From a virus, in IMG/VR virus record IMGVR_UViG_3300027908_000047, positions 1-25,657 of that record: 25,657 nt of DNA; one strand, written 5' to 3'. The notes under the pieces are model-generated. The model was not told where the DNA came from and did no database searches. It was given only the letters and a program-made list of their open reading frames with translations. The translations under genes and the position numbers were made by a program. Positions 1,404-25,077 of this stretch are shown here, one piece after another. The stretch's first letter is position 1. Each line of letters begins with the position of its first letter.

Positions 1404-1953
1404 GCTTGATTATATCCAAAAGGGTACGAAAATGTTAAACAATCAATATCGATATGTTTCTCACGACCAAGTCACGGCATCGATTCATCCTTTATTGGTA
1501 AAACATGGCATTGCAGTGATTCCTACCGTTAATAAATACACCCAAGAAGGGAATCGAACTACAGTAGAAATAGATGTTTTTTTTGTTAATGCAGACAATC
1601 CACAAGATCAATTTAGTGTGAAGTCTATCGGTTTTGGTGTAGATCCGTCAGATAAGGGGCCTGGTAAAGCAATATCCTACGCATTTAAACTGGCCTGCCT
1701 GAAGACATTCTGCCTTGAGACAGGTGAAGATAGCGACCATGACCAAAAATCGCGCTACGAGGCTCCTAGATGCTTAGAATTCGATTTAGCGATACCTTTA
1801 TCATTCACAGAAGCAGAAAAGAAGCGATTGAACAAGTTCCTTATCGAATCGGCTGAAGCGCAAGGCAAACATGTAGAAGAAATAAAGGCCAGCGCACTGG
1901 GTAAGATGGAGCAGTTTCTTGAGGTATTTAAAAAATGGAGTGGTAAGAAATGA
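1351..1953 (+). CDS. erf: ERF-family single-strand annealing protein
   Basis: This 200-residue protein carries the ERF-family signatures: NQYRYVSHDQVTASI around residues 31-45, a beta-rich stretch with GIAVIP, and GKAISYAFKLACLKTF at about 105-120 followed by an acidic ETGEDSDHD. ERF proteins bind single-stranded DNA and anneal complementary strands during phage recombination and genome circularisation. The length matches the family. AAGGA precedes the ATG. The gene overlaps the end of the PD-(D/E)XK nuclease gene, forming a two-component recombination module like lambda Red or P22 Erf systems. The C-terminal third (about 150-200) is a charged helical tail that may bind partner proteins. Confidence 0.92.
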   Translation: MEPTVKNVYQRILAVMSELDYIQKGTKMLNNQYRYVSHDQVTASIHPLLVKHGIAVIPTVNKYTQEGNRTTVEIDVFFVNADNPQDQFSVKSIGFGVDPSDKGPGKAISYAFKLACLKTFCLETGEDSDHDQKSRYEAPRCLEFDLAIPLSFTEAEKKRLNKFLIESAEAQGKHVEEIKASALGKMEQFLEVFKKWSGKK

Positions 1954-2075
1954 AGATAATTCTAATGGGTATTTGTATAATGATGTTAGCCGGCTGTGCA
2001 GCAATCTTGCCTCCATTGATAGAGGTTGTCGAAGAAGCCATTGTGTTAGAAGCAAATGAAATAGAATCAAAGTAA
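1950..2075 (+). CDS. 41-aa lipoprotein
   Basis: The ATG (1950-1952) overlaps the TGA stop of the ERF gene, so the two are probably coupled. Residues 1-15 form a short signal peptide (one Lys followed by a hydrophobic run). They end in the lipobox LAGC, with the lipidated Cys at residue 16. The mature part is only 26 residues, CAAILPPLIEVVEEAIVLEA followed by a short acidic tail. A type II signal peptidase substrate of this size could be an outer-membrane spanin subunit or a superinfection-exclusion lipoprotein. It lacks the proline-rich body of classic Rz1-type spanins, and no inner-membrane partner is adjacent. The lipoprotein call is firm; the role is open. Confidence 0.7.
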   Translation: MKIILMGICIMMLAGCAAILPPLIEVVEEAIVLEANEIESK

Positions 2076-3694: not shown

Positions 3695-4411
3695 TTAAGT
3701 CAGTGTGATTGTTCCGCTATTGTCAGTAATAACCCATGTGGTGTTTGCAACGACGCATTGGATTGCCATAACCTGAGCTGCTGCGGTTGCTGAAGCTGCG
3801 TTACCTGTTGTGACTGTAGAGCTGCCTGCTGGTCCCCATATGATTTGCCCTGTCGTGTAGGTTACTTTCCATCCGCCAGTGTTCAGAGCACTCCCAACGA
3901 TTTTAATAATGTCTCCTACCGCAGAAGTTGCAGGTAAAGTAAATGTTGTTAGCGACGCATTATTAGCAATGTAGGTATGTCCCGATGTCATGGCTTGTGT
4001 TGTGCCGGCTACTGGGGTTACTATGAGCTGAGGTGTTGCTGTTTGGAAACTTGGATCAGCAGAAGCGCCCCCAGAGACTAAGAATTGACCTACAGTACCT
4101 GCTGTTGTAGAAGCTACGTTAGATGCACCTTCGCCGATAAGAACACCATGAGCAGTGGAACCTGTGATTGCCAAGGTAGTCGCATGAACTGGTCGAGGTG
4201 TAGTGCTACCAAATCCCAGAACAGGTGGAGAAGCAAAGTCTGCTGATGCCGCTGCTGATAAGGTCGCAGGCGAGATATATTTGTAATTGATGGTACCCGC
4301 TTCGGCTTCGGCAATAGTGGCTGCTTGTACTTCGGAAGGTTGTGTATATGGCGTACCGGTAACTCGTGGTGGGTATCCGGCGTGACCTAGTGGATTTGTG
4401 AAAAGTCCCAT
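3695..4411 (-). CDS. Tail fibre / fibre-shaft protein
   Basis: This 238-residue protein begins MGLFTNPLGHAGYPPRVTGT and is preceded by AGGAG. It is rich in Ala, Thr, Gly and Ser. Residues about 26-47 include an AEAGTINYKYISPATL segment of the kind found where fibre shafts join virion proteins. The middle has TAGTVGQFLVSGGASADPSF, a repeat unit seen in many trimeric fibres. The C-terminal half (about 129-238) is beta-rich and ends GTITLT. It is probably a structural part of the fibre next to the receptor-binding protein. It is the first fibre gene downstream of a 42-bp motif (4420-4461) shared with the scaffold promoter region. Confidence 0.65.
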   Translation of the reverse strand: MGLFTNPLGHAGYPPRVTGTPYTQPSEVQAATIAEAEAGTINYKYISPATLSAAASADFASPPVLGFGSTTPRPVHATTLAITGSTAHGVLIGEGASNVASTTAGTVGQFLVSGGASADPSFQTATPQLIVTPVAGTTQAMTSGHTYIANNASLTTFTLPATSAVGDIIKIVGSALNTGGWKVTYTTGQIIWGPAGSSTVTTGNAASATAAAQVMAIQCVVANTTWVITDNSGTITLT

Positions 4412-4419
4412 GTGATTCT

Positions 4420-4461
4420 CCTTTTAAAATAATTTGTTGTCATTTTAGGCAAAATTTTTTT
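4420..4461 (-). repeat. 42-bp motif, copy 1 (upstream of fibre genes)
   Basis: Read on the minus strand this is seven A then TTTTG, a variable centre ending in CAA, four unmatched bases, then TTATTTTAAAAGG. It matches the stretch at 16554-16595 without gaps at about 32 of 42 positions. Both copies are intergenic and end a few bases (here 9) to about 37 bases before a late-gene start. It is a candidate late promoter or activator site. Confidence 0.6.
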
Positions 4462-4463
4462 AG

Positions 4464-4492
4464 TTGCAGTTATATTTGTGTTTTGTTATAGT
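4464..4492 (+). promoter_or_regulatory. Sigma70-like promoter for the 20-aa ORF
   Basis: TTGCAG (4464-4469), a 17-bp spacer and TATAGT (4487-4492) give a good -35/-10 pair pointing right, against the late operon. Transcription would begin near 4499, just before the AAAGGA ribosome site of the micropeptide gene at 4515. Confidence 0.6.
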
Positions 4493-4514
4493 GTTAAAAA
4501 CAAAGGAATTAATT

Positions 4515-4577
4515 ATGTCAATTGTAGGTATTCTTTCTGCTGCGTTCTTATTATGGGTTATGGAAGCTATGGATTAG
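4515..4577 (+). CDS. 20-aa membrane micropeptide, opposite strand
   Basis: The frame encodes MSIVGILSAAFLLWVMEAMD and stops at TAG 4575-4577. AAAGGA (4502-4507) stands 7 nt before the ATG, and a sigma70-like promoter lies at 4464-4492. Residues 3-16 are hydrophobic and could span or insert into a membrane, with an acidic C-terminus. Its last bases overlap the stop codon of the leftward 877-aa gene by 3-4 nt. It is the only rightward frame between 2100 and 21000 with its own promoter and ribosome site. The late transcript would be antisense to it. It could be a lysis or holin-like peptide, an exclusion factor or a type I toxin-like peptide. None of these is established. Confidence 0.5.
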   Translation: MSIVGILSAAFLLWVMEAMD

Positions 4578-7207
4578 TCTTCTTCTTCGTCTAGTACATC
4601 TCCCAAGTGTTCCCATGCTGCTAAGAACTTAATAGGATCATTCTGATGCTTTGCTGCCTGTTTCCAAGCTCTGCGCACTGCTGGACTGGTTGCCATCTTG
4701 GTTAATAGCTTCCTGCCTACAAGGGTAATTACTGTGTTCGGTAAACCAAGTTTCATAAGAGCAAATACACCCATTGCAGCCTTCGGTGTTAGACCTAATG
4801 CATCGGCAAACCAAGCATTCCATTTCTTCATCTTTGCTTGAACTGGAAAGTCTTTAGCCGCCATTCTTTCTAATAACTTCTGTCCTTTCTCGCCGGTTGT
4901 TTCCTTCTTGCGACGTACACCTGTTTCAATGGCTTCTTCGCCTGCTTTTGCTACTTTTGGCTTTTTAATATTTTTTGCTTTGGTCTTAGCTATTAGATCT
5001 TTTCCTCGTTTGGCTTCACTTTTAGTTGGAATTCTATCAAGCATTTTTACATTTTTATCTAATACATTCACTTCAGCTTCTAATCCTCTAAAGAATTGGA
5101 CTGCTTCTTCGCCTCCTAATTCTCTAAGGTTATTCATTGCTGCTGCATCTTTAAGAAATGGTTTTAGCTTTTTAACATCAATCACGCCGGAAGGAGAAGT
5201 AATAGAAGAAATCATGTCGTTTAATGTCTGCTTTTCAAGATATTCTTTTACTGGCGTCCAATTAGGACTGTCTTTAAATGTGTCTTTTATTATCTTTTGA
5301 CCTTTCTGAGTCTTCCATAAGTTCAATGTTTTCTCTGGTCTTGCGCCGGTTGTAAATGCATTACTCATGTCATTAAGAATACCCTCTTGCGTTTGTTTTT
5401 TGCGGAACTGAAGATTATGAGGGTTCTTTGACTCGACAATATCCTTGGCTATCTTCCTTGTATCGGCTGATAATTGCTTCTGCATTTCTCGGTATGTCTT
5501 TGCAGCTTTCTCGTAGTTCATTTCATTCATTTTCTCAAGGATTTCGCGCTCAATCTGTAGCATTTGTTTCGGAGATAACACATTGCGCATATCTTCCACT
5601 GCTGTAGGTGACTTAATCGCTTGTGCAGCTCTTTCCCCTGCTTCTTTTTGTCTAATAGCTCTTATCGAGTCCTTGTTATACAGATTAGCTACTCTCGCAT
5701 GTTCAGCTTCAGCAAGTTCATATGCAGTTAAGGCATCAGGGTTTGCTTTCAGTCCTATACGTACATCCTGTTTAATTGCTGCTGCAACAGGTTTAAGTAT
5801 GTTCTTCACAGTAGGATCAATTGTTTCATAATTAATTAAATTATTTACTCTGCGTCCAAGTTCAATACTATTAGCCACTGGAACTTCACCATTCTGTACT
5901 ATTAATTCAATTGCCCCTCTCTGACCTTTAGGTGCTGGCGCTCTTTGAATCGTATAACCAGAATCTTCGAGAATTCCCTCTAACTTATTCATAGTTGATT
6001 CGTATTCGGGCGGCTTAGTTTTTAATGGTTTACCTGCTGTAGGGCTTTCTAATTTCTTTAATTTGTTTCCTGCTTCTTTTGCAGTACCTTCAGGATTATG
6101 CATTATTCCTTCTGCTGCTTCTTCTGCTTCGGTATATAACGGCTTGTAACCTTCTCTAGCTTCATGAAGGTTTTTTTCTATATCTTCTTTGATCCCAGTA
6201 CCTAATTCTTGCTCTGAAGGCGCTCTTTCTCCGATTGTCTCTATCTGTTTCTCTATTGCGGAATTTTCCAGTGCTTCGGCTTCGTAAACAAAATTTATAT
6301 TCTCTGGTTGGTATGCTTCGGCGTTGTATCGTGTTTCCTGAATCAATGGGGTTAATTTCTCTTGTGTGATCTTCTTACCCTTGAGATCTTGTGGTGAGAC
6401 CGCCTCTTGTGTGAAACGCTCTTGTGCTAGGGTTTCTATTGGTTCTTGAGCCTTAGATGCTACTTTCAGTTCTCTCGTCGCAAGCTCTGGTTCTTTCTCA
6501 AGGATTTCAAGCGCTGTCTGTGCTACTTTTTCTGGCTGGTTAAGATCAACACCCGAATCCTTTATCTTTGTAACGACATTATCTAAAACCTCATAGGCTC
6601 CTTGCTTTCCACCTTTGCTAAATAATCCTTTAGTGAACTGATAACTTTTACCTAATATACCTAAACCAATGTCGATAGATGCCCATTCCAAGCCTTTATC
6701 TAATAATTCCTCTGCACTTGGCTGCCTACCTTTTACAAGTTCTTCTGCTTCAAAGTGTGCAACTCCGGCAGTAGTAATACCTAAAAGATTCGCGAGTCCC
6801 GTAGCTTGTTTCTGTAATATAGGACTCTTTGCAGCTAATTTAGTAAGAGCACCGCCAAAGAAATTATATAATTTTGTAATAGGAAGAAGTGCACCAACTG
6901 CTTTACCTGTTCCTGAAGCAATATTCTCGCCTGCTTCTAATCCTGGCACTTTTTCAGATAAACCAAATGTAACTCCTGATAATAATCCTCGTATCCCTTC
7001 AGCAGTTCCTAATTCGGCAGCTCTTTCAAATTCCCCTTCAGCTTCCGGTTCAAATCCCTTCTCTCTAGATTCTTCTGAAATAACATCATGCACAGGAGAT
7101 TTCTTAGGTTCTTCTACTGTCCAGCCTTCAGTCAATGTATTCTCTTTTTTCTTTGGTTCCTCATCGACTGTCCAGCCTTGAGTTAAACCTTTTACTTCTT
7201 CAGCCAT
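4574..7207 (-). CDS. Large internal virion / DNA-ejection protein
   Basis: This 877-residue, strongly helical and charged protein starts with a tandem repeat: LTQGWTVDEEPKKK (8-21) and LTEGWTVEEPKK (25-36). A Gly/Ala-rich hydrophobic region at about 75-150 (FGLSEKVPGLEAGENIASG, then GALLPITKLYNFFGGAL) could contact membranes. The middle is long coiled-coil-like helix. The C-terminus (about 795-877) has another apolar helix (AAMGVFALMKLGLPNTVITL) and an acidic end. Position, size and composition match the ejection proteins of podoviruses (P22 gp16, T7 gp15/gp16 class), which leave the capsid to form the channel for DNA entry. No lytic transglycosylase motif is evident. It overlaps the upstream gene by 16 nt. 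Confidence 0.65.
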   Translation of the reverse strand: MAEEVKGLTQGWTVDEEPKKKENTLTEGWTVEEPKKSPVHDVISEESREKGFEPEAEGEFERAAELGTAEGIRGLLSGVTFGLSEKVPGLEAGENIASGTGKAVGALLPITKLYNFFGGALTKLAAKSPILQKQATGLANLLGITTAGVAHFEAEELVKGRQPSAEELLDKGLEWASIDIGLGILGKSYQFTKGLFSKGGKQGAYEVLDNVVTKIKDSGVDLNQPEKVAQTALEILEKEPELATRELKVASKAQEPIETLAQERFTQEAVSPQDLKGKKITQEKLTPLIQETRYNAEAYQPENINFVYEAEALENSAIEKQIETIGERAPSEQELGTGIKEDIEKNLHEAREGYKPLYTEAEEAAEGIMHNPEGTAKEAGNKLKKLESPTAGKPLKTKPPEYESTMNKLEGILEDSGYTIQRAPAPKGQRGAIELIVQNGEVPVANSIELGRRVNNLINYETIDPTVKNILKPVAAAIKQDVRIGLKANPDALTAYELAEAEHARVANLYNKDSIRAIRQKEAGERAAQAIKSPTAVEDMRNVLSPKQMLQIEREILEKMNEMNYEKAAKTYREMQKQLSADTRKIAKDIVESKNPHNLQFRKKQTQEGILNDMSNAFTTGARPEKTLNLWKTQKGQKIIKDTFKDSPNWTPVKEYLEKQTLNDMISSITSPSGVIDVKKLKPFLKDAAAMNNLRELGGEEAVQFFRGLEAEVNVLDKNVKMLDRIPTKSEAKRGKDLIAKTKAKNIKKPKVAKAGEEAIETGVRRKKETTGEKGQKLLERMAAKDFPVQAKMKKWNAWFADALGLTPKAAMGVFALMKLGLPNTVITLVGRKLLTKMATSPAVRRAWKQAAKHQNDPIKFLAAWEHLGDVLDEEED

Positions 7208-14790: not shown

Positions 14791-15735
14791 TTAAAGATTC
14801 TGTGTTGACAAGAGGCGTGTGATCCAGTTGTCATTCAATAGGCGAGTAGCAAACGGATACTTGTAACCCACTGAGCCTCTTTGGTTTAATGGATCAGATG
14901 TACCGCTAGAACCTAAAGGCTTAACGATGAATTCGGCTTCTTTAGAACCAAGCTTGACTACCCCGTACGCTTCTTGACCTAGAATGATATTTGACCAAAC
15001 AGGGATCGAAGCACCATTGTTGTAACCATTCGTTGATAATAACCATCTCACGTTGTTTGTGGAACCCCATTCAGCCTCTAGAGCATCCATAGGGTTAGGA
15101 TAGTTAGCGGCAGATAGGAAGTCAGCGCATGCTTCTAAGTCCACTTGCAGGTTAACATCCATAAAGCCCCAGTAAGAACTACGCACTGGACTAGTTGCAA
15201 AGCGGTTTTCACCAGGAATTGGCTTAGTCATCAGCCTTGCATTACCAAGACGAAGGGCTCGCACCGCTGTCTTAATATCTGCAGTCGTTATTTCTGTTGG
15301 AGTATTGCCATTTGTGCCCTGTGAACATAGTATAGAGCTTGCGGTAGATACCATCATATTTCGAATTAAAGTATCAATGGTCAACCCTAATTGCAATGAA
15401 AGTACCCTTGTAGCCTCATTGAGGACCCGATCTTGCACTGTGAACTGGACTTGATCGGTAATAGTGACGAAGTTTCCGTACCATTTGATCTGTGTTGAGA
15501 AGTCAGTAACGCTGAGGCTATCTCCTGGGGGCGATGTGCCATCAAGAATCGGAACCGTGGCTGCTGAAAGCGTTGAATAGCGTCTGAAGACCATCTGATC
15601 GCCAGAGTTCAATGGAATAGTTCGCTTTTGGGCAAACATGTCGTAAATGTAATAAGGTCGTGCTAAGGTCAACAGAAGGCGGTCAAAATATGTACGTACT
15701 TCTGGTGGCACTTGTGCGGTTGTTGTGATTGGCAT
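14791..15735 (-). CDS. Major capsid protein, N4-gp56 type
   Basis: This 314-residue protein has AGGGAAGAT before the ATG. The N-terminus PPEVRTYFDRLLLTLARPYY (9-28), the FRRYSTLSAATVPILDG segment (about 50-66) and KWYGNFVTITDQVQFT (about 84-99) match the layout of N4-gp56-family coat proteins. In that family an 'A-x-PEV..YF....L' opening leads into an HK97-fold shell domain. The length is in the family range. The scaffold-like protein stands immediately before it, and coat-associated proteins follow. Confidence 0.9.
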   Translation of the reverse strand: MPITTTAQVPPEVRTYFDRLLLTLARPYYIYDMFAQKRTIPLNSGDQMVFRRYSTLSAATVPILDGTSPPGDSLSVTDFSTQIKWYGNFVTITDQVQFTVQDRVLNEATRVLSLQLGLTIDTLIRNMMVSTASSILCSQGTNGNTPTEITTADIKTAVRALRLGNARLMTKPIPGENRFATSPVRSSYWGFMDVNLQVDLEACADFLSAANYPNPMDALEAEWGSTNNVRWLLSTNGYNNGASIPVWSNIILGQEAYGVVKLGSKEAEFIVKPLGSSGTSDPLNQRGSVGYKYPFATRLLNDNWITRLLSTQNL

Positions 15736-16517: not shown

Positions 16518-16553
16518 TCATTTCCTTTGATCCCGGCGACAGATCTAATTACG

Positions 16554-16595
16554 CCCTTTAAAATAAAAACTTGACATTCAGGACAAAATTTTTTT
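16554..16595 (-). repeat. 42-bp motif, copy 2 (upstream of scaffold/coat)
   Basis: On the minus strand it reads seven A, TTTTG, a variable centre ending in CAA, then TTATTTTAAAGGG. It matches the copy at 4420-4461 at about 32 of 42 positions. It begins at the stop of the 136-aa gene and ends about 37 nt before the scaffold start. Either a phage-specific late promoter or an activator site would fit. Confidence 0.6.
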
Positions 16596-17004
16596 ATGCA
16601 AGCAATATCGATCCTGATTTCTTTGCTGCTTGTGCGATTGTAGGGATGAAATCTTCCTTGCGATGCGACAACTCGATACCACTGATCGGAATATCATACG
16701 GAAGGCTTAAGTCAGTCTCTACTTCGAGATTCTTATCCACAGAGTTCCATTTAAAGACCATAACACCTACCATTGCTGCCGGAGGTCTTTTTGCTATCAC
16801 TTCCCACCCCATGACCAGTGCATTTGCTTGCTTCACGTGTGGTTTAGCTGCAAACAGTATCCAAAAGTGGCCCTCAAGCTTTTCTGCATACTTCTCGGCT
16901 AAACGTTGCGCATCGGACCAACAGTCTTTAGCCATCGGTTCTCTCGTCTCGCCCATCTCCTGCATATTAGAGTTGCGTGTCTGACCTATTAATGTTGTCT
17001 GCAT
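16594..17004 (-). CDS. 136-aa structural-region protein
   Basis: This protein begins MQTTLIGQTRNSNMQEMGET, with AGGTGA before the ATG. A middle helical region has SDAQRLAEKYAEKLEGHFWI (about 30-49), then LFAAKPHVKQANALVMGWEV and a beta pattern GVMVFKWNSVDKNLEVE. It ends in a helix-rich KKSGSILLA. It lies just before the scaffold gene. No known family comes to mind; a head-assembly or regulatory role is plausible from position alone. Confidence 0.65.
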   Translation of the reverse strand: MQTTLIGQTRNSNMQEMGETREPMAKDCWSDAQRLAEKYAEKLEGHFWILFAAKPHVKQANALVMGWEVIAKRPPAAMVGVMVFKWNSVDKNLEVETDLSLPYDIPISGIELSHRKEDFIPTIAQAAKKSGSILLA

Positions 17005-18754: not shown

Positions 18755-18997
18755 CTAACGCGAAGCCTCTTGTACATGCCGTGTATGTGTAGCTAATTTG
18801 TGTCGGGCTTCTTCGGCTCTAATTGCTTTTTTTAATTCACTGATTTCGCTTTTTTCATTTTCAGCTTTTTTTTGTTCCGCTCTTTTACGTTCACTATCAT
18901 TCGCTAAAACATTCCCATAAATTCTATTTGAAGATTCTTGGGATTTAGCTTTTGATTCAGACTTTCTTAATTGTGCTTTGTACTCTTCTTTACTCAC
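18755..18997 (-). CDS. 80-aa helical protein, GTG start
   Basis: The start codon is GTG (complement at 18995-18997), sharing one base with the portal stop (TAGTG), so it is probably translated by re-initiation. The protein is almost entirely charged helix: MSKEEYKAQLRKSESKAKSQ then a long EKSEISELKKAIRAEEARHK stretch. It looks like a coiled-coil continuation of the portal's own C-terminal helix. A small scaffold-like or portal-associated factor is possible. Confidence 0.55.
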   Translation of the reverse strand: MSKEEYKAQLRKSESKAKSQESSNRIYGNVLANDSERKRAEQKKAENEKSEISELKKAIRAEEARHKLATHTRHVQEASR

Positions 18998-20994
18998 TAC
19001 TTCACCTTTGTTTTAGTTTTTTCTTTGATTGCCGGCTGCGGAACCACTGTATCTGCTGCATTCAATCGCTGGTTCTCTTCAATCGCCAAGATCATGTTTA
19101 ATATCTTCTCTGCGTGTTCGACACCCTTACCGTGCAAATTAGCGTCCATCTCTTCGAATTCCTTGCTAGCCCTGACGATATCAAGTACACTTCTTGCTCT
19201 CTCTTCCTGCGCTGCTGCCAATCTTTCTTCTGACAAGGCTGCATCGTATTTGATTCTGCTGAGCCTTTCTTCTCCCAGTGCGACATCTCCATATGCTTTT
19301 GCTTCGAGTAGCTTGTTGACCCGCTGCTTGTCTTCCATTTCCTGCTGATGCTCTTCCTTCGCTTGCTCTGTTTGCTGCTCGATCTTCTCCATGAATTTCT
19401 TGTTGATCGGAAACGGTGATAACTCCCAAAGCATCTCGTCTGGTACAGCAACTCCACCGGCCTTCATTGTCCATGCCTGTAGGAATGCGCTCTGCTTCTG
19501 GTTCTCTGTCATCACTGCTGGAACAATATCAACATCATACTCAAGAAATGTCCTGTTGTAGAACTCTGGTGTCGGCTGTTGCTTAATGATTCGCTGCACC
19601 TTTTCCGGCGTGTAGTTCTGTATCATCTTGAGCACTTTCTTACTCAACAGGTATTGTGACTCGCGCAGGTTCTCAAATATCGGTCCCAGTCCCATCATTC
19701 CCAAGGCTTGCTTCATTTGGAATAGCACGGAACTCATTCTATCTGTGTCGTCTACGGTCAAGCTGCTCAGGTCCACCATATCTGTCATGTCTTTATCGAA
19801 ACTGTCGGACAAGGCGAACAAACTCTCTGGTATCGAAGGAGCATCTATTCTTTCGGCATCACTCACTTCGTAACCAGGATTGAAGAATATCACCTTTCCC
19901 TGCCCTGATTGAAACAAGGACTTCGGATTAGATACTGCGCCAGATTTAACCTTCCAGCCACTTCCTATCTGAGAATCGACGATGTCCAGTAGCTTGGAGC
20001 GCCTCATATTTAATTCTTCCTGGGGGTCTCTGAGTATCCTGACGAGGCCTTGTATCTTCCACTGAAATAGATCGTAGGACCCGTCGTAGAGGCAGTAGAA
20101 GGGCACAAAAGGGTACTCGCCTATGCCCCAAGGATCGTCACCACTGTAAAGGAGCCTGTTCTCAACTATTACATTATACTCGACTGTTTTGTAGTAGCCC
20201 TCTATCACAGCAAGGTTTGGAAAGAATCGCTGCATCATTGCCAGTCTTTTCTTGTCTCCCTTCCATGGCTTCTGTTCCCCTGTGGTCTTGTCTATAAGCA
20301 GTGAACCCTTCTTGTACCGCTGTTTCCAGTACTCATTGTATGCTAAAAGTTCCTGTAGACCCCACTGGCGGGCATATGGCTCATAGGTAAACTTTTCGTC
20401 CCTGTTACCATATCCCATTGCATCGATCTCACGCTCACACCCGGGGACCATTGACTTGATCACATCCTTGGCTAAATACTTCCTGCGGGCTACAAAGGTA
20501 CAGTCTTCCAAGTCACAACGAGTGCTGAATGGGTCCCAGATCACATCATTCCAATTATCCAAGTGAAAACTGATTTGTCCATTTACATAATCTTTTCTAT
20601 AATCTACCCAAGGAGAAACCCAACAAACACCTGTAATTAAGCTCTTTAGAAATGCTTCACTGATAATTCGATACCCATTGGGCTGCATTACATGGCGAAG
20701 AAGCTCGGTCAATTGCTCTGCTGTTTCCTCGTTACCTGTTTCGAATGGAAGAACTACACTGGAATTGGCATGCGCTTTTTGATAGCCGGATACCATGTTG
20801 ATAATCTTGCGGATCTTGTTGAAGGTAAAACTATTTCGTCTCTCTTCATTTAGATACCGCATTTGCTCAAGACTCCACTGATTTCCCAAGTAAAAGCCGG
20901 TGTCTCTGTATGCTTCGGCGTAGTAAGTGTTAAGCAACATGTAGGCTCTGTTATAGTCTTGGGTGAAGTCGGAGACGATATCGTAATCTGGCAT
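18997..20994 (-). CDS. Portal protein, P22-like
   Basis: This 665-residue protein has ATG at 20992-20994 with AGGA a few bases upstream. It has the P22-type portal layout: an N-terminal helical part with YYAEAYRDTGFYLGNQW (about 24-40) and NKIRKIINMVSGYQKAHANS (about 59-78), then DVIWDPFSTRCDLEDCTFVA (about 149-168), a stem and wing region with PFVPFYCLYDGSYDLFQWKI (about 301-320), and a crown helix. The C-terminal 130 residues (535-665) are a long charged barrel-like coiled coil (KEEHQQEMEDKQRVNKLLEA) ending in a Lys/Thr-rich tail. The portal forms the dodecameric DNA channel and nucleates assembly. Confidence 0.88.
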   Translation of the reverse strand: MPDYDIVSDFTQDYNRAYMLLNTYYAEAYRDTGFYLGNQWSLEQMRYLNEERRNSFTFNKIRKIINMVSGYQKAHANSSVVLPFETGNEETAEQLTELLRHVMQPNGYRIISEAFLKSLITGVCWVSPWVDYRKDYVNGQISFHLDNWNDVIWDPFSTRCDLEDCTFVARRKYLAKDVIKSMVPGCEREIDAMGYGNRDEKFTYEPYARQWGLQELLAYNEYWKQRYKKGSLLIDKTTGEQKPWKGDKKRLAMMQRFFPNLAVIEGYYKTVEYNVIVENRLLYSGDDPWGIGEYPFVPFYCLYDGSYDLFQWKIQGLVRILRDPQEELNMRRSKLLDIVDSQIGSGWKVKSGAVSNPKSLFQSGQGKVIFFNPGYEVSDAERIDAPSIPESLFALSDSFDKDMTDMVDLSSLTVDDTDRMSSVLFQMKQALGMMGLGPIFENLRESQYLLSKKVLKMIQNYTPEKVQRIIKQQPTPEFYNRTFLEYDVDIVPAVMTENQKQSAFLQAWTMKAGGVAVPDEMLWELSPFPINKKFMEKIEQQTEQAKEEHQQEMEDKQRVNKLLEAKAYGDVALGEERLSRIKYDAALSEERLAAAQEERARSVLDIVRASKEFEEMDANLHGKGVEHAEKILNMILAIEENQRLNAADTVVPQPAIKEKTKTKVK

Positions 20995-21278: not shown

Positions 21279-22136
21279 ATGAACTACCAGAAGTGTGAAA
21301 CTCAAAACTCCCCAAGAATCCATCATCACCGCCTCGATAAAGACTACTCAGTTCTAGCTAATCATGGCGTAGAAAACCCTAATCTTTCCTATGCAGCCAA
21401 GGGATTACTTTGGTATATGCTAAGCAGAGAATCAACTTTTGAAATCCATACATGGCATTTATCTAAAATCTATATTGGTAAGAAAAGAGGTAACAGTAGA
21501 GATGCAGTACAAATACTTTTAAAAGAGCTTCAAGAACAAGGATATCTTACTCATCAAGTCTATAAAAATGAGAAGGGACAATGGCAGCATAGATATGATA
21601 TTTATCCCCTTCCTCACAGTGAGTTTAAAATAAAGTTTCCCGAACAGGATAAGGCGTTGCCGGATAAGGCGGTGCCGGTAAACTGCCATGTATTACCTAT
21701 TACTGAGTTACCTATTACTGAACAACATGTTTTGTTTGTTAAGGAATCGTCGCCTGTTGCTCCTCTTCCGATGAAAAAGAACACAAAAAAACAAGGACAA
21801 GAAGAACAAATGCCTAGAACGAAAGAGAATCTATATGCTCAATGCGTATTAAATAAAAAAGACTGGGTCAAAGAAGAGATCGAAGAAGCTTGGAAAATCC
21901 TTGAAGAATATCCATCTCCTGTGACAAACTGGTTCAACTTTTGCGATGGTACTATAAAAAACCTCCGAAAGATGCATAAAATAAAACAAATAGATGAGAA
22001 TAAATCATGTCAGAATTCAGAAGAAAAATTACCCTTGAAAAAGCCATTATTCAATATCAAAGAAAAAACTTCGGAGACAGATACTGCGGCGCATCCCTTA
22101 GCCAATTGGAGGCAGGAGATGGGGTGGGAGAAATAA
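21279..22136 (+). CDS. Winged-helix phage replication protein
   Basis: This 285-residue protein has AGGA about 7 nt before its ATG. Residues about 20-105 form a winged-helix-like domain: LDKDYSVLANHG, then LSYAAKGLLWYMLSRESTFE and SRDAVQILLKELQEQGYLTH, ending in a strand RYDIYPLP. The helix-turn-helix plus 'AAKGLLxYML' opening is common to phage replication-initiation proteins. A Pro/Ser-rich linker with a duplicated LPITE motif (about 139-148) leads to a C-terminal helical part (about 185-235, VKEEIEEAWKILEEYPSPVT) resembling the DnaT/DnaD helper type. It probably binds origin DNA and recruits the loader encoded next. Confidence 0.75.
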   Translation: MNYQKCETQNSPRIHHHRLDKDYSVLANHGVENPNLSYAAKGLLWYMLSRESTFEIHTWHLSKIYIGKKRGNSRDAVQILLKELQEQGYLTHQVYKNEKGQWQHRYDIYPLPHSEFKIKFPEQDKALPDKAVPVNCHVLPITELPITEQHVLFVKESSPVAPLPMKKNTKKQGQEEQMPRTKENLYAQCVLNKKDWVKEEIEEAWKILEEYPSPVTNWFNFCDGTIKNLRKMHKIKQIDENKSCQNSEEKLPLKKPLFNIKEKTSETDTAAHPLANWRQEMGWEK

Positions 22137-22618
22137 TATTAGAGTTTATGAAAAATCCAAAAAATATGTTAATTTATCATGGAAATCCTGGAATCGGTAA
22201 AACTTATCTATGTGCTGCGATGACTGAATGGGCTTTACGAGTTTTTGATACAAGAAGATACCACCGCGAAGAAAGCATTTTAAGGCGGCTACGTTGCGGT
22301 ATCAGTGATGGGCAGGGTGATTACCTTGTCGCGCTAGAATATCTCATTGACGACGAACTGGTGATGCTTGACGACGTAGGATCTGGTATTAACCCAAGTA
22401 AATTAACTTATAGAGATTTGGAATTCCGAAGAGAAGTATTTTTTAGCTTTTTAGATTATCGCTACAACTCCGGAAAGCCAACGATTATCACAAGCAATTT
22501 TACTAAAGATGAATTTGAAAAAGTTTACTCAGAAAGAATATGTGATCGATTATTTGCCAAAGAAAACACTATAATAAGTATATTTGATCAAGAAAGTAAG
22601 CGAAAAATAGGAAAATAA
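22007..22618 (+). CDS. DnaC-like helicase loader ATPase
   Basis: This 203-residue protein has AAA+ motifs in order: Walker A GNPGIGKT (59-66), Walker B LVMLDDVG (118-125), sensor-1-like TSNFT (162-166) and box VII SERICDRL (175-182). The N-terminus includes GDRYCGASL, matching the region before the ATPase core in DnaC-like loaders. It would load the host replicative helicase at the phage origin. The start lies inside the preceding gene, a 130-nt out-of-frame overlap, with only a weak AGATGAGA site. It ends about 100 nt before a third rightward frame. Confidence 0.88.
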   Translation: MSEFRRKITLEKAIIQYQRKNFGDRYCGASLSQLEAGDGVGEIILEFMKNPKNMLIYHGNPGIGKTYLCAAMTEWALRVFDTRRYHREESILRRLRCGISDGQGDYLVALEYLIDDELVMLDDVGSGINPSKLTYRDLEFRREVFFSFLDYRYNSGKPTIITSNFTKDEFEKVYSERICDRLFAKENTIISIFDQESKRKIGK

Positions 22619-24949: not shown

Positions 24950-25077
24950 TGAAGAAGGAGGGACTCGAACCCCCGCGCTGCACGAAAACGATACCAGGTT
25001 TATACTATTACGCACAGGCTAGGTATTCCCCACACCACCATCGCTCGTCCCGGCTCTACCAACTGAGCTACTTCTCC
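24950..25077 (-). tRNA. Interrupted tRNA-like gene (128 nt)
   Basis: The acceptor arms GGAGAAG and CTTCTTC pair along all seven bases (one G-U), D arm GCTC-AGTTGGTA-GAGC and T arm GGGGG-TTCGAGT-CCCTC are normal, and discriminator A follows. The part that should be a 21-22-nt anticodon arm and variable loop is about 77 nt. Within it ACGAGCGAT and ATCGTTTTCGT can pair imperfectly, and ATACC pairs with GGTAT. No anticodon loop with T33 can be placed. It could be a tRNA with an insertion, a fusion of two tRNA halves, or a tRNA-like RNA. Confidence 0.5.

Follow-up and report, generated by a model that had tools for sequence, protein, structure and literature searches.

A probable membrane micropeptide gene in the sieA-type slot of a P22-like phage group, and its possible role in superinfection exclusion

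The whole stretch of viral DNA analysed here, referred to as the window, is a 25.7-kb fragment (25,657 nucleotides) that encodes a P22-like portal, major head protein, terminase, Erf and exonuclease. Its gene order (portal, scaffold-position gene, coat, tail genes, a 362-aa gene, an 877-aa gene, a gap and a 238-aa spike gene) matches the P22 order 7-20-16-gap-9, with the ejection and spike roles assigned purely from synteny. The ejection- and spike-position proteins of the window gave no family match, and the 877-aa gene had no homologue among GenBank phages at the DNA or the protein level. The gap between the last-ejection-position and tailspike-position genes holds a very short gene on the opposite strand, with the following features in and around it.

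4464–4492, + strand: predicted sigma-70-type promoter TTGCAG-17-TATAGT, start at about 4499; best-scoring site upstream of the ATG
4502–4507, + strand: ribosome binding site AAAGGA, 7 nt before the ATG
4515–4577, + strand: micropeptide gene, 20 aa, MSIVGILSAAFLLWVMEAMD, one hydrophobic core and an acidic C-terminus
4574–4577: 4-nt stop-to-stop overlap of the micropeptide gene with the convergent 877-aa gene
4574–7207, − strand: 877-aa gene at the position of P22 gene 16 (last ejection protein), by synteny only
3695–4411, − strand: 238-aa gene with conserved N-terminus MGLFTNPLGHAGYPP, at the position of the P22 gene 9 tailspike, by synteny only
4416–4475, − strand: conserved late-strand element before the spike gene, probable late promoter or leader; second copy at 16551–16596
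14791–15735, − strand: major head protein, the query used to fetch relatives
18997–20994, − strand: P22-like portal protein (PF16510, E=5e-66)

The promoter comprises a −35 box TTGCAG at 4464–4469, a 17-bp spacer and a −10 box TATAGT at 4487–4492; the ORF runs from an ATG at 4515 to a TAG at 4575–4577, and its 20 codons include an uncharged run of 16 residues. An earlier note on this DNA had described the promoter, the AAAGGA site, the 20-codon frame and their spacing within 4464–4577, all of which were confirmed to the base, and the overlap that it reported with the stop of the 877-aa gene proved to be 4 nt long. A 37-aa frame starting with TTG and spanning 4464–4577 was rejected, as its start is the −35 box. 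No terminator-like site was found on the plus strand downstream of the micropeptide before position 6391.

The promoter matches the consensus at 8 of 12 positions and is absent from the list produced by a generic scan, which returned 30 promoter-like sites in the window against 34.7 expected, no more than chance. With a weight matrix, TTGCAG-17-TATAGT scored highest of the sites before the ATG (P=0.025 relative to shuffled sequence), although the host may not follow sigma-70 rules. Dinucleotide shuffling of the window gap produced a hydrophobic ORF of similar kind, ribosome site included, in 3% of cases. Given this rate and the chance-level number of promoter-like sites, the window alone is not proof of a gene and is only suggestive of one. 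The 20-aa peptide had no match in Pfam, PHROG or NCBIfam and no close homologue was found; a search for the exact peptide pattern across IMG/VR gave nothing.

The stronger evidence comes from relatives, which were retrieved with the head protein and the conserved N-terminus of the spike gene and supplied the orthologous gap from about 23 distinct phages. The set analysed consisted of 14 gaps that were 60 bp or longer, that of the window among them. We counted ORFs on the strand opposite the late operon that had an ATG start, at least 14 aa, a Shine-Dalgarno core and a hydrophobic stretch; these thresholds were chosen after the first sequences had been seen, and the same thresholds were used for the controls. 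Antisense hydrophobic ORFs with ribosome sites were present in 12 of the 14 gaps (28 ORFs in total), against a mean of 0.53 positive gaps, and a maximum of 3 of 14, in 300 rounds of shuffling. The sense strand of the 14 gaps contained no qualifying ORF, and neither did 42 other late-cluster gaps (6.6 kb) of the same phages. Because 12 of 14 gaps are positive where 0.5 would be expected, the micropeptide gene is convincing and very probably real. The set of about 23 relatives thus supports the proposal that a membrane micropeptide is encoded against the direction of the late operon, behind a predicted promoter of its own.

The same comparison shows that the content of the slot is present in some relatives and missing or replaced in others. 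The earlier note had suggested searching related phages for the promoter-RBS-ORF block: relatives with long gaps keep an ORF of diverged sequence, whereas about 11 relatives have short gaps of 12–72 bp and nothing of the block, which is the pattern that a moron would give. The gap is empty in about half of the relatives, several of which carry similar genes elsewhere; in short-gap relatives these lie behind erf (G013), behind the integrase gene (G005, G010) and behind tail genes (G009). As a separate observation, a 41-aa lipoprotein-like ORF, MKIILMGICIMMLAGCAAILPPLIEVVEEAIVLEANEIESK, occupies 1950–2075 (+) in the window, starting inside the erf stop (ATGA) and followed by a terminator-like hairpin at about 2073–2100; short lipoproteins (QNISTHGTATDLVDE) occur at the same place behind erf in relatives.

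Eleven gaps end, next to the ejection gene, in a single-TM micropeptide of 16–28 aa. The terminal micropeptides of the relatives are as follows.

L094: MGTFISVILFFIVCFFLGGNRV
L103: MTLGFWVVMTIAIVSIFWDPT
L105: MSGFWVFVLGYLLFSMSFNGKER
L112: MHFLYCLFVLAAIWIFIEN
L157: MFLTALSLMFIWWVYE
L111: MENFLTYAIIIILMFATSD
L108: MHFIVEVIGLAIIYFFMSRGD
L151: MNFIKEFFVGFILFLIYGD
L100: MIGFFACFIGTFLFGWLFLSDG
L099: MIIFLLGSALVLGVKATVIGALWAWNSD, without a good ribosome site

In six cases (window, L094, L099, L103, L105 and L112) the micropeptide gene shares exactly 4 nt with the upstream stop. The terminal micropeptides resemble one another more than do shuffles that keep core and tail composition (score sum 1210 against 876, sd 52), a similarity of which shared membrane-helix rules could explain part. 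One relative (L102) has a 17-aa micropeptide internal to its cassette, and another (L093) a 49-aa hydrophobic ORF unlike that of the window. Larger cassettes add proteins of 55–90 aa with an N-terminal TM segment and a charged helix, carrying the motifs DFHGRL or GHAQRIDQLY (seven in L100), and operons reach up to eight such membrane ORFs. Between genomes, cassette homologues differ at codon positions 1, 2 and 3 in the proportions 113/70/174, and from this third-position bias it follows that the antisense cassettes are truly coding. No convincing family match was found for the cassette proteins in Pfam, PHROGs, NCBIfam or GenBank phages. The 4.4-kb antisense cassette between the ejection and spike genes of relative G002 (L178, 1791–6283) combines seven TM-plus-helix ORFs with DFHGRL/GHAQRIDQLY motifs, a terminal micropeptide and an AbrB-like small gene.

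Across the gaps of the relatives and the window, predicted promoters upstream of the first ORFs beat shuffles (combined P=9e-5), the best being those of the window, L093, L099, L111 and L151, with leaders of about 15–23 nt. The window promoter recurs in L093/L068 with identical hexamers and spacing, and the L068/L093 contig was the only one to match its exact pattern across IMG/VR. The sequence beyond it, which in L093 leads to the 49-aa ORF, diverges completely from the window, as though a single promoter had acquired different genes. On the late strand, the conserved element has a consensus of roughly TTTTGN5AAATGTAAAGAAATTATTTGAAAAGGAG and is also found in G001, G005, G016, G020, G022 and G026; its second copies precede the scaffold-coat genes (16551–16596, −, in the window). 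It partly overlaps the micropeptide promoter, back to back with it. Relatives that lack the micropeptide block keep this element, and the spike gene can thus do without the block.

The relatives have genomes of 38–41 kb. An integrase is present in G001 and homologues of it in nine other near-complete relatives examined, and the group is therefore probably temperate. A host search with the head protein and terminase against 84,980 species genomes gave no match. Among the matches listed for the pooled unknown ORFs of relatives were single ones to Surface_Ag_2 (a family associated with Rickettsiales), an opacity-type porin, a DXD glycosyltransferase and GroES, which are possible hints of the host and of other morons. 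Further features of the group lie outside the slot. Genes for a replication initiator and a DnaC-like loader (21279–22618, +) sit between portal and terminase on the opposite strand, an insertion present in only one or two of ten relatives. At 24950–25077 (−) the window has an eighth tRNA-like gene of 128 nt, which Rfam finds and ARAGORN misses: a tRNA carrying an insert of about 55 nt. The window carries a tRNA array, and its close relative G001 has an RNA-repair module (L119, 13059–17077) of an RtcB-like tRNA ligase, an RNA ligase and phosphoesterases.

What might a single predicted membrane helix do at this site? The earlier note had offered lysis, exclusion or a type I toxin-like peptide. 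Exclusion is the best fit, in view of the sieA slot and the integrase in relatives, and the other two are disfavoured. By analogy, superinfection exclusion at the level of DNA entry is the likeliest role of the micropeptide, and one that we propose tentatively: where the gene lies and which way it faces, its predicted promoter, its membrane nature and its variability all make sieA-type exclusion the most likely. Inserted between the genes for the last ejection protein and the tailspike, and facing against the late operon, the gene would be transcribed by host RNA polymerase independently of late activation, in the prophage or early in infection. The 20-aa peptide would enter the inner membrane as one helix and would then most likely hinder the entry of related short-tailed phages, for example through contact with the membrane-spanning conduit of ejection proteins, in the manner of P22 SieA, which is encoded in that slot. 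Against this, the functions of small membrane proteins are many, and position by itself fixes none of them; the peptide lacks a close homologue and SieA is unrelated to it in sequence; and half or so of the relatives do without anything in the gap. Our preferred reading, held with rather less than even confidence, is that of a minimal one-gene moron, most likely for exclusion, in a P22-like and probably temperate phage.

The strongest rival, a somewhat unlikely one in our estimate, is a membrane micropeptide made in the prophage or early in infection that does another job, such as modulating a host membrane protein, a stress response or some other form of lysogenic conversion. Of the known small single-TM proteins of bacteria, most act as regulators of membrane partners. 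Such proteins have been linked to stress responses (PMC7549839). The evidence for a real gene, namely the excess of gap ORFs, the similarity of the micropeptides and the control gaps, serves this reading equally well; it leaves unexplained the preference for a slot beside the ejection genes, for which insertion at a neutral site could nevertheless account. Rightward transcription may also act in antisense on the 877-aa gene or the spike gene, a possible effect because no terminator-like site closely follows the micropeptide. Antisense RNA is likely given the plus strand's lack of such a site before 6391, and the back-to-back arrangement with the late element points the same way. As a rival explanation, however, this is improbable: it would not predict recurrent membrane-type ORFs with ribosome sites, and the spike's late element is retained in relatives without the block.

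A type I toxin-like peptide that is kept silent by late transcription from the antisense strand is improbable: its size and hydrophobicity fit the IbsC/TisB class, but the generic scan found no minus-strand antitoxin promoter over the ORF (4500–4700), Rfam and NCBIfam gave no match, and relatives hold operons of up to eight such ORFs. Lysis, by a holin-like or single-gene-lysis-like peptide, is slightly less probable again. No lysis gene was recognised in the window, nor among the matches listed for the pooled unknown ORFs of the relatives; the statement that none lies elsewhere in the window is true, and uninformative for a 25.7-kb fragment of 38–41 kb phages. The gene stands outside the late transcript and opposite the late operon, no endolysin partner was recognised nearby, about half of the relatives have an empty gap, the sequences vary greatly, and the larger cassettes contain several paralogues unlike holins. 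Equally improbable is an ORF that arose by chance, the gap having no content but the spike promoter; the 3% of shuffles and the lack of a detectable homologue of the exact peptide would allow this, but it sits badly with 12 of 14 positive gaps against 0 of 42 control gaps and with the identical promoter in L093.

Returning to exclusion, a wider and more speculative form of the proposal, which we consider somewhat unlikely as it stands, is that the 16–28-aa single-helix peptides form a new, fast-evolving family of very small superinfection-exclusion proteins in an uncultured P22-like group, expanded in some members into TM-plus-helix operons that would guard the membrane against sister phages. 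If true, a single helix of 20 residues would be enough to stop the DNA entry of a short-tailed phage. Genes this short escape gene finders, and here it is the positional signal of the sieA slot that reveals them; the result is a set of phage membrane micropeptides without counterpart in the family databases searched.

Three known systems invite comparison. The type I toxins of the IbsC, TisB and Fst class resemble the window peptide in length and hydrophobicity, but the window gene differs in having no antisense antitoxin promoter and no Rfam match, and genes of its kind often lie within multi-gene cassettes. Bacterial small single-TM proteins of the YohP class (PMC7549839) are alike in their 16–28 aa and one hydrophobic helix with little else, whereas the window peptide is phage-borne, lies in a moron slot and has no family match. 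The closest parallel is positional. In P22, sieA follows gene 16 after 23 bp, ahead of gene 9, and is read from the opposite strand by a promoter of its own; the slot is recognised as a moron site (the 'ant moron'; PMC2629481), and escape mutants cited beside P22 SieA map to gp16 and gp20 (PMC10883804). The window gene occupies the same place in a syntenic late operon as this Lederbergvirus slot, also on the opposite strand and behind a promoter that is predicted, and shares with it a product of inner-membrane type and content that is variable or absent among relatives. Unlike that of P22, the window slot has no mnt, arc or ant genes. SieA is a protein of about 160 aa with three TM segments, whereas the window peptide has 20 aa, one predicted TM segment and no sequence relation to it; size, topology and sequence thus place the window peptide outside the SieA family. 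A known moron slot is here filled by an undescribed class of micropeptide.
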